A stretch of 64,000 nucleotides of DNA from the NCBI RefSeq assembly GCF_001767395.1, contig NZ_CP017014.1:3170501-3234500 (forward strand). Direction: 5' to 3'. The stretch comes from Rhodococcus sp. WMMA185 (GTDB taxonomy: Bacteria > Actinomycetota > Actinomycetes > Mycobacteriales > Mycobacteriaceae). Positions 46,839-50,400 of the stretch are shown piece by piece (the first letter of the stretch is position 1; every line of letters starts with the position of its first letter). Under the pieces are notes generated by a model. It saw nothing but the letters and a program-made list of their open reading frames with translations, was not told where the DNA came from and did no database searches. A program made the translations under genes and the position numbers.

Positions 46839-48092
46839 TCAGGGAACAGCGATCCGCCCCTCGACCGCGGCGAGGCCGATGTCTTTGCGGTAGTGGCTTC
46901 CGGGCAGCTTGACGGTGGCGATCTTGTTGTAGGCGTCGTCGCGCGCGGCGGTCAGATCGGGTCCGACCCCGACAACACTGAGGACGCGGCCGCCGGACGA
47001 AACTACTTGATCCTCAACAATTTTCGTACCCGCATGCAGAATCCCGTCGCCATCGGCTCCCGTGACCACGTCGCCCGTGCGCGGCGTCGCCGGGTAGTAC
47101 TCGGCAGCGACGACGACCGTCACCGCGGAGCCGTCATGCCATTCGAGTGGCGCGACCTGATCCAACGTTCCCGTGGCCGCCGCGTTCAGGAGTTCGCCGA
47201 GCGGGCTCTTCAGCAGAGCCAGCACCGCCTGCGTCTCGGGGTCACCGAACCTGCAGTTGAACTCGACCACGGCCGGGCCGTCCTTGCCGATCGCCAGACC
47301 GGCATACAGCAGACCGGTGAACGCACAACCGCGCGCGACGAGCTCGGCAGCGACCGGCTTCACGACGTCGTCGACGATGCGGGCGACGGTCTCGTCGGGC
47401 AGCCACGGCAGCGGCGTGTAGGCGCCCATGCCGCCGGTGTTGGGCCCCGTGTCACCATCGCCGACACGCTTGTGGTCTTGAGCCGGAAGCAGTGGCACCA
47501 CGGTTTCACCGTCGACGACACAGAACAGCGATACCTCGGGTCCGTCGAGGAAGGATTCGAGGAGGACCGGGTGACCGTTCTCGAGCAACTCGGCAGCATG
47601 ATCGCGGGCGGTGTCACGATCGGTGGTGACGACGACGCCCTTGCCCGCGGCCAGGCCGTCGTCCTTGACCACCCAGTTCGGTCCGAAGCGATCCAGGGCC
47701 TCGTCCAGCTTGGCGGGATTGTCGACGATCTCACTGTGCGCGGTTCGGACACCGGCCGCTTCCATGACATCTTTGGCGAACGCCTTGGAACCCTCGATGC
47801 GTGCGGCCCCCGCCGAGGGGCCGAAGCAGGCGATGCCGGCCGAGCGAACGGCGTCGGCGACGCCGAGGACGAGGGGCACCTCGGGGCCGATGACGACGAG
47901 GTCGGCGTCGAGTTTCTTCGCCAGAGATGCCACGGCCTCCCCTGACGCGACATCGACGGGGTGCTGCTCGGCGATCTTGCCGATCCCGGCGTTGCCGGGT
48001 GCACACATCAGGGCAGTGACACTCGGGTCGCGAGAGAGGGCGAGAAGGAGGGCATGTTCACGGGCTCCGGAGCCTATAACGAGTACGCGCAC
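46839..48092 (-). CDS. purD: Phosphoribosylamine-glycine ligase
   Basis: 417 residues, ATP-grasp. [20 protein letters not shown] at the N-terminus, [25 protein letters not shown] and [12 protein letters not shown] are GARS marks. Joins glycine to phosphoribosylamine (step 2). Convergent with the ArsM-like gene and divergent from a HIT gene. Confidence 0.96.
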
Positions 48093-48137
48093 GAGGTCAG
48101 CCTACGGCGCGCCCGTCCGAGCGCATAACCTCACCAC

Positions 48138-48563
48138 ATGGGATCTGTATTCAGTGCCATCATCAACGGAGATCTGCCCGGACGATTCGTGTGGGAGGAC
48201 GACGACGTCGTCGCGTTCCTCACCATCGCGCCCGTCACGCAGGGTCACACCCTGGTCGTGCCGCGCAGGGAGGTGGACCAGTGGCAGGACGTCGACGATG
48301 ACGTGTGGACCAAGGTCATGGATGTCTCCCGGACGATCGGCCGCGCTGTACGCCCCGCATTCGAGGCCCCTCGCGCAGGTTTGCTCATTGCAGGCCTCGA
48401 GGTACCCCATTTACACGTGCACGTCTTCCCTGCCTACGGCCTCGGCGACTTCAACATCAGCAACGCGGATCCGAACCCGTCTCCGGAATCCCTCGACGAG
48501 GCAGCTGACAAGATCAAGGCAAGCCTTCGTGAACTCGGGTACGCCGACACGGTCCCCGTCTGA
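48138..48563 (+). CDS. HIT-family protein (Rv0759c-like)
   Basis: 141 residues. [20 protein letters not shown] at the start and the triad HLHVHVFP near residue 95. Compared with the HIT gene at 39460 it lacks the N-terminal Cys pair (FSAI in place of FCAI). Divergent from purD, as in mycobacteria. Nucleotide substrate unknown. Confidence 0.9.
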
Positions 48564-48676
48564 TCGAAGGCTTCCTTGCCCACTCACCACTCGACGACCT
48601 GACGCACTCGGGCCGGGGTCACGCTCACTTGCCCCGAGCCCCCAGTTGGGTAACATATTGGTCGTCGATACGACAT

Positions 48677-48719
48677 CCGGACGAGCGCACCGTACCCGGC
48701 CAGCGACAAGACGGTGCAC
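48677..48719 (+). ncRNA. Guanidine-III (ykkC-III) riboswitch aptamer
   Basis: The sequence matches the guanidine-III consensus in order: CCGGACGAG, CCGTACCCGG and ACAAGACGG. CCGG at 48677-48680 pairs with CCGG at 48696-48699, and GCACCGT at 48687-48693 pairs perfectly with ACGGTGC at 48711-48717, forming the family's pseudoknot. The Shine-Dalgarno AGGAG at 48720-48724 directly abuts the 3' strand, so ligand binding would set ribosome access to the SugE/Gdx gene. Matching was by eye. Confidence 0.88.
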
Positions 48720-48730
48720 AGGAGCTCGTC

Positions 48731-49045
48731 ATGGCATGGATCGTATTAGTGGTGTCGGGAATCTTGGAGGCCGTCTGGGCCACTGCCCTCGGCCGCTCTG
48801 AAGGATTCTCCAAACTCGGACCCAGCGCCCTCTTCGGTGTTGCGTTGATTCTCAGCATGGCGGGTCTGGCATACGCGATGCGCGATCTTCCCACCGGAAC
48901 CTCCTATGCAGTCTGGGTGGGAATCGGCGCCTCGTTGACCGTTGCCTACGCAATGCTGACGGGTAGCGAGGCCGCATCGCTGGTGAAAGTCCTGCTGATA
49001 GTGGGAATCGTGGGATGCGTCGTCGGCCTGAAGGTTCTGCACTGA
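48731..49045 (+). CDS. sugE: SMR exporter, SugE/Gdx guanidinium subtype
   Basis: 104 residues, four helices, MAWIVLVVSGILEAVWATAL with the essential Glu13. It resembles the SugE branch (GTSYAVWVGIGASLTVAY) rather than EmrE. Gdx proteins export guanidinium ion, and the guanidine-III riboswitch immediately upstream strongly supports this role. A longer in-frame start would lie within the riboswitch and is rejected. It stands alone, with no second SMR subunit. Confidence 0.92.
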   Translation: MAWIVLVVSGILEAVWATALGRSEGFSKLGPSALFGVALILSMAGLAYAMRDLPTGTSYAVWVGIGASLTVAYAMLTGSEAASLVKVLLIVGIVGCVVGLKVLH

Positions 49046-49236
49046 TTCGCAATAGTCGAGGGGTTGTGGCAGGGGCCGGCAAGAAGGTACGTATTTCGCA
49101 TGGCATCCGTTTCGCGTGATACGAACCGTCGTTAAATGCTGGCCCCTGCTGCTGTCCCACTCGAGGGATGTAGTTCCGGCGCGCGAGCCAGCTCGTAAAC
49201 TCTCAGGGCATTTCACCCCTTCGGACTAGGACACCC

Positions 49237-50400
49237 ATGACGTCTGTTCCCGTCGGTGCCGACACACGCATCGAGCGCATCACCCTGCCCGATTCGACCA
49301 CGGCCTGGGAGATCGCCGGCTACGACACTGTTCGGCATCTCCTGGGCGATCAGCGGTTGTCGTTGAACCGGAAACACTCCACCAGTGGCTATACAGGGCT
49401 TTCGTTGCCCCCCGCACTCGATGCGAACCTGCTGAACATGGACCCACCGGAACACACTCGCATCCGAAAACTCGTAGCCGCAGCATTCACCACTCGCAGA
49501 ACCGAAGCACTCGAGCCGCACGTGCGCTCCACGTGCAAGGAACTTCTTGCCGCATTGCCCGGCCAGGCTGACGAGCACGGCGTCGTCGACCTGATCCCGG
49601 CATTCACCAGTGTGATTCCATGTCGGGCAATCGCCGATCTGTTGGGTGTACCTGTAGAAGACACGGAGGACTTCTCTCGCTGGACAACGACATTGGTGAA
49701 CAACGCCACAACTGATCCAGAATCCGTCAAGCAGGCTGCCGGCGCGATCGTCCTCTATCTGATGAAGCTGATTGCCACGAAACGCAACCGGCCCCAGGAC
49801 GATCTGATCAGCGACCTGATTGCCGCACGCGATAACCGCGACGCGTTGACGGATGACGAGTTGCTATCCCTGGCCTTCCTGCTCCTCGGCGCGGGGTACG
49901 AGAATGCCGCGAACCTGCTCACCAACACGTTGCATGCCGTACTCACCTCCGGGGATCTCGCAGCAGAAATCACCGAATCCCTCACCCGCACAGGAACAAT
50001 CAGCGACCCGCTCCGAGAGAACATCATTCGCCTCCACGACGGGGTGAAGCATGCGATACGCCGCTTCCCCACCACCGACATCGAGGTCGGTGACACGGTC
50101 ATCCCCTCCGGCAGCACGATACTTCTGGCCACACGCGAAACCAACGCCGGAGCTCAGCAGCACTTGAGCTTCGGGCACGGTATTCACTACTGCATCGGAG
50201 CATCCCTGGCACGACTCGAGCTCACCACCGCACTCGAAGAGTTCCTCACCACGTACCCGAACGCGCGACTCGCCCCCGACCGGGAGATCAGTTTGCGGCC
50301 GTCCACGCGGGTCCATGCACCCAACGCCTTGCCTACCGTGCTCGGGCTGCCACGCGCGACTTACAGTCCCGCTACCGCCGATTTGGACACACTGCGGTAG
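49237..50400 (+). CDS. Cytochrome P450, non-canonical
   Basis: 387 residues. The haem-thiolate loop SFGHGIHYCIG holds Cys319. LLNMDPPEHTRIRKLVAAAF and the I-helix GAGYENAAN (218-226) are P450-like. The I-helix lacks the usual acid-alcohol threonine (Asn/Ala there). In the K-helix, ENIIR (261-265) puts Asn where the ExxR Glu belongs, and the meander before the haem loop is missing about 20 residues (TRETNAGAQQHLSFG). It may still bind haem; turnover is doubtful. Redox partner and substrate not visible. Confidence 0.8.
   Translation: MTSVPVGADTRIERITLPDSTTAWEIAGYDTVRHLLGDQRLSLNRKHSTSGYTGLSLPPALDANLLNMDPPEHTRIRKLVAAAFTTRRTEALEPHVRSTCKELLAALPGQADEHGVVDLIPAFTSVIPCRAIADLLGVPVEDTEDFSRWTTTLVNNATTDPESVKQAAGAIVLYLMKLIATKRNRPQDDLISDLIAARDNRDALTDDELLSLAFLLLGAGYENAANLLTNTLHAVLTSGDLAAEITESLTRTGTISDPLRENIIRLHDGVKHAIRRFPTTDIEVGDTVIPSGSTILLATRETNAGAQQHLSFGHGIHYCIGASLARLELTTALEEFLTTYPNARLAPDREISLRPSTRVHAPNALPTVLGLPRATYSPATADLDTLR

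Follow-up and report, generated by a model that had tools for sequence, protein, structure and literature searches.

What does the SMR gene at this locus of Rhodococcus sp. WMMA185 export, and what controls its expression? We analysed a 64,000-nucleotide stretch of DNA around it (hereafter the window; positions 3,170,501 to 3,234,500 of NZ_CP017014.1, forward strand, with coordinates below counted from its first letter), for which a first-pass annotation had proposed a Guanidine-III riboswitch controlling a stand-alone SugE/Gdx exporter. Judged by its sequence, the locus very probably comprises a Gdx exporter gene whose leader contains a Guanidine-III riboswitch, with the assignment of guanidinium as the exported substrate drawn from published work. 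A covariance-model search of the whole window on both strands, the check that the first-pass annotation had named for its match to the Guanidine-III consensus, placed the complete Guanidine-III (ykkC-III) aptamer model (RF01763, model positions 1–67 of 67) at 48656–48720 on the forward strand; its 65.4 bits (E 2.9e-11) clear the gathering score of 36 by a wide margin. The RNA is thus confirmed as a Guanidine-III riboswitch match, and published work on the class suggests guanidine as its ligand. The sole further Rfam match at gathering thresholds on either strand of the window was a tRNA, a permissive RNA-family search of 47900–49300 returned no match besides Guanidine-III, and a whole-genome RF01763 search found one match in the 4.44-Mb genome (E 4.8e-13).

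In the structure line of the covariance alignment, the model opens with a 5' hairpin, GUCGU/ACGAC, formed by 48661–48665 and 48670–48674. The aptamer start proposed earlier, 48677, is where the core begins but leaves out this hairpin (48661–48674). Mapping the pairing scheme of PMC5696562 onto the letters, all on the forward strand, gave a P1 helix of two CCGG strands (48677–48680 with 48696–48699) and, within the covariance match, a P2 helix of GCACCGU (48687–48693) and ACGGUGC (48711–48717). Only standard pairs occur, four in P1 and seven in P2, which bears out the perfect seven-pair pseudoknot helix claimed at the outset. Between P1 and P2 runs the third strand, ACGAGC (48681–48686), which has six bases in the window versus seven (5–11) in the numbering of PMC5696562; the short form is frequent among relatives. 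The crystal structure as described in that source identifies C6, G7 and G17 as the ligand-contacting bases, and all three are kept, as C48682 and G48683 in the third strand and G48692 in the 5' strand of P2. The window RNA therefore shares with the Guanidine-III class (RF01763) its full-length covariance match, the P1/P2 pseudoknot, the ligand-contact bases and a placement directly 5' of an SMR gene.

That gene occupies 48731–49045 on the forward strand and encodes a protein of 104 amino acids, which we class as Gdx-type from profile matches, structural relatives and key residues. The protein matched PF00893 (SMR) at 68.3 bits against a cut-off of 23.7, and a search of the 4.44-Mb genome found no PF00893 gene but this one. 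Its best solved relatives were 6wk5 (E 4.4e-17) and 8vxu (E 1.6e-16), deposited as SMR family proteins, which we take to be Gdx-Clo; EmrE structures ranked behind, at E 3.1e-6 or worse. The alignment to 6wk5 was ungapped across residues 1–102, and this match, the length of 104 residues and five key residues (E13, W16, S42, Y59 and W62) are shared with the Gdx (SugE) guanidinium/H+ antiporters such as Gdx-Clo. According to PMC7695847, W16 is conserved in Gdx and is Gly or Ala in Qac, and the remaining four residues serve binding and transport. The description of the gene as a Gdx-type SMR with Glu13 thus held: E13 was confirmed, and the Gdx-specific W16 and the identity of the closest solved relatives were added to it. 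With the NCBIfam SugE equivalog (NF008512), the protein scored 89 bits, short of the curated cut-off of 126, and by its sequence it is a protein with Gdx traits that nevertheless falls outside the NCBI SugE equivalog.

Reading of the sequence placed a ribosome binding site, AGGAG, at 48720–48724 on the forward strand, beginning two bases past the last P2 pair, and the ATG start codon at 48731–48733, with the gene ending at 49045. The T. fusca example described in PMC5696562 differs in having its ribosome site 16 nt from P2, whereas the 2-base spacing seen here is frequent among the Guanidine-III loci of relatives. Upstream, the gdx frame stays open across the entire aptamer as far as a TTG codon at 48629 (48629–49045); because of the homologues and the ribosome site, we favour ATG 48731 over TTG 48629 as the start. 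The gene is stand-alone, as first described, toward its downstream neighbour, a P450 gene that starts 191 bases past the gdx stop, but a HIT-family gene on the same strand ends only 92 bases 5' of the aptamer. This shared orientation and 92-base gap make a joint transcript conceivable, and gdx may be transcribed together with the HIT-family gene. A search for sigma-70-type promoters found none at the locus, which is of little significance in this organism. We also rejected switching by a transcription terminator: the sole terminator-like site lies inside the gene (48823–48842), and 0.5 such sites are expected by chance.

How common this pairing of RNA and gene is was assessed in 151 genomes of relatives, the strain's own genome included, with Guanidine-III matches counted at E <= 0.001. 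RF01763 was present in 85 of the 151 genomes (86 matches, 83 of them above the cut-off) and PF00893 in 114. We read all 86 loci. A gene was called SMR if its product had 95–112 residues and an [EQ]xxW motif close to position 13, and by this rule an SMR gene followed Guanidine-III in 81; E13, W16, S42, Y59 and W62 were invariant in all 81 riboswitch-linked SMR genes. This gene order agrees with the earlier expectation of an exporter behind the riboswitch, and Guanidine-III is typically partnered with an SMR gene. The other five loci carry two genes encoding 383 and 384 residues (L002 and L020) and three genes for small membrane proteins. At L002 (genome G077) and L020 (genome G091), Guanidine-III precedes ureohydrolase-type genes; in a profile scan, the L002 protein resembled agmatinases, with scores below the curated cut-offs, and a PF00893 search of G091 found no SMR match in that genome. 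The association of Guanidine-III with actinobacterial emrE/speB-type genes was published in 2010 (PMC2864571), and PMC12186494 mentions 237 unique Guanidine-III representatives, chiefly from Actinobacteria. Because the association is frequent in relatives and has been in print since 2010, the window locus is a further instance of something already known, an ordinary case of a bacterial detoxification switch often met in relatives.

For the mode of action, PMC5696562 proposes that ligand binding both stabilizes the fold and makes the ribosome site accessible, a mechanism that it describes as less well established. On modelling grounds, a translational ON switch is the likeliest mechanism here, with the ON direction taken from published work. 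Rising guanidinium would stabilize the aptamer in its pseudoknot and triple-helix fold; the stabilized aptamer would take the strand around ACGAGC (48681–48686) out of pairing with the start region; the withdrawal of this strand would free the ribosome site at 48720–48724; and the Gdx antiporter would then be made, moving guanidinium out of the cell in exchange for protons. When the window leader was folded without pseudoknots, GACGAGC (48680–48686) paired with GCUCGUC (48724–48730, between the ribosome site and the start codon) on the forward strand, with pair probabilities of at least 0.99 and beside an intact P2, yielding a candidate OFF helix. This predicted state leaves the AGGA of the ribosome site in a bulge flanked by two helices, and the bases that precede the ATG are paired. 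When the platform was shuffled 300 times, no shuffled version paired with the aptamer strand to the same degree (p 0.003). Because it occupies C6 and G7, such an OFF helix would compete directly with guanidinium. We regard it as possible, if on balance doubtful, that the ligand-holding strand GACGAGC (aptamer positions 4–9 plus one base) doubles as an anti-start strand, such that guanidinium and repression would vie for the same bases.

The coupling predicted for the window leader varied with the boundaries chosen. Fifteen pairs of ends were tried: with the aptamer set aside, the start region opened more easily in 9 of them and less easily in 6, and the largest easing, about 8–10 kcal/mol, was confined to four pairs (RNAs starting at 48656 or 48677 and ending at 48745 or 48755); the modelled aptamer–start coupling of this leader is therefore dependent on the stretch that is folded. 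Under the set-up used for the whole class, the window leader gave opening costs of 7.9 versus 8.1 kcal/mol, which is no difference and was equalled by 47.5% of shuffles, and its overall stability was unremarkable (z -0.11).

Across the class, the start region carries a recurrent signature. Of the 81 riboswitch-linked SMR genes, 46 have GUC directly 5' of the start codon and 23 have CGUC; 18 of 29 genera show GUC there at least once, and in 14 most leaders carry it. In 20 relatives, GUC preceded 7 of 140 control starts, which were picked by a simple ORF-plus-ribosome-site rule; for the strain's own genome, the count was 3 of 42. When only ATG starts were counted, the figures were 2 of 57 and 1 of 16, respectively. 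GUC was present in 37 of 66 distinct platforms versus 7 of the 140 controls (Fisher 4.9e-16). If the strand around the ligand does double as an anti-start strand, the GUC preceding the start codon in those 46 leaders would belong to the same design. Platform analyses covered 76 of the 81 SMR leaders (those with a platform of at most 30 bases), collapsed to 63 distinct platforms. Setting the aptamer aside lowered the modelled cost of opening the start by a mean of 3.9 kcal/mol versus 1.0 in shuffled platforms (63 distinct, Wilcoxon 1.6e-10), supporting a translational ON switch in the class. The CCGGACGAG strand paired with the platform no more strongly across the class than in shuffles (p 0.18), and the OFF helix modelled for the window is not conserved letter by letter. 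Pairing with the 3' strand of P2 exceeded shuffles (p 3e-8), with a reversed P2 control also scoring (p 2.4e-4); these class p values are too small, because the leaders are akin to each other. Together, the folding models give good support, at the level of the class, for coupling between aptamer and start region. The first-pass view that translational control is likely thus gains from the class as a whole, but in the window leader 9 of 15 stretches pointed in the expected direction. This class-wide view yields a testable pairing between aptamer and start region in a riboswitch with a mechanism that is, according to PMC5696562, less well established.

Other accounts of the locus have to be weighed against a guanidine-responsive exporter gene. 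The RNA match could in principle be a functionless chance hit or a decayed copy, which we rejected on the covariance score: with 65.4 bits, a perfect P2, the ligand-contact bases kept, an intact gene directly 3' and the identical order at 81 of 86 loci, this is extremely improbable. The protein, in turn, could be a Qac-type multidrug pump that chances to follow a guanidine riboswitch, and it does match PF00893 and several NCBIfam qac models. However, the qac models reached at most 43.4 bits against cut-offs of at least 160, the closest solved relatives were 6wk5 and 8vxu, and residue 16 is a Trp rather than the Gly or Ala that PMC7695847 gives for Qac. We rejected a Qac pump on account of Trp16 and consider it very improbable.

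Unlike these readings of what the parts are, a further alternative concerns how the switch acts. The riboswitch might work mainly via mRNA stability, with the guanidine-bound pseudoknot blocking RNase E scanning, so that more mRNA leads to more protein; RNase E protection has been described for Guanidine-III, beside translational control, in the review PMC12186494, citing Richards and Belasco 2021. Nevertheless, two bases separate the ribosome site from P2, and stability control alone would have no need of the coupling between start region and aptamer that is modelled across the class. We consider a mainly stability-based switch unlikely, and control of stability and of translation can operate together. 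In our preferred reading, a translational ON switch ahead of a Gdx exporter gene, the riboswitch indicates what an otherwise anonymous SMR protein is likely to transport. Because its gene is the sole SMR gene found in the genome, guanidinium export is probably its single job here.

Outside the window, we observed a link that is more unexpected than the window locus itself. At 10 actinobacterial loci (L046/L108 in G127, L076/L109 in G144, L086/L110 in G094, L117–L122 and L124), Guanidine-III lies directly before a gene for a membrane protein of about 85 residues from the CBU_0592 family (NF047864), in place of an SMR gene. The riboswitch scored over the Rfam cut-off of 36 at 8 of the 10, with G094 (35.8 bits) and L117 (32.9 bits) under it. 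Three of the 86 loci read above, in G127, G144 and G094, are of this kind and represent three families of the order; their proteins scored 44.0, 43.8 and 52.9 bits, respectively, with NF047864 (cut-off 25), and their riboswitches 57.9, 46.2 and, just below 36, 35.8 bits. The CBU_0592 family was present in only 12 of the 151 genomes. Using the G094 protein as the query against genome contigs returned 15 loci, eight of them actinobacterial, and six of the eight had an above-cut-off Guanidine-III directly 5' (two Hamadaea, Asanoa, Pseudonocardia, Kribbella and an Actinomycetales MAG). The locus of Hamadaea tsunoensis (L117) carried the match at 32.9 bits, and that of Nocardia veterana had no Guanidine-III upstream. 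None of the seven non-actinobacterial loci (Bacteroidota by title) had Guanidine-III at the cut-off, nor did any of 30 CBU_0592 loci from a phylum-wide draw of 396 genomes.

Members of the riboswitch-linked CBU_0592 subgroup have a common WGFLLLEGTWAIVS stretch and three predicted helices, and the protein is perhaps a transporter. We rejected the idea that these genes replace SMR, as PF00893 was absent from only 4 of the 10 genomes and the other 6 had at least one SMR gene. A full-text literature search by the family name CBU_0592 retrieved no paper, although the link may be published under another name. From their gene order, the CBU_0592 proteins are possibly a second guanidine-regulated membrane protein family; this actinobacterial family, to which the searches made assigned no function, is probably under guanidine control.

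Other guanidine-related functions were sought in the genome of the strain itself. Guanidine-I had no match anywhere in it at E <= 0.001, and Guanidine-II had none at the same threshold among the 150 of 1717 candidates that were scored. An agmatinase-type match was present below its cut-off. The genome also contains a full-length urea carboxylase-type gene (G000:C1:2882897-2886481, 1691.9 bits), whose product may act on urea or on guanidine.
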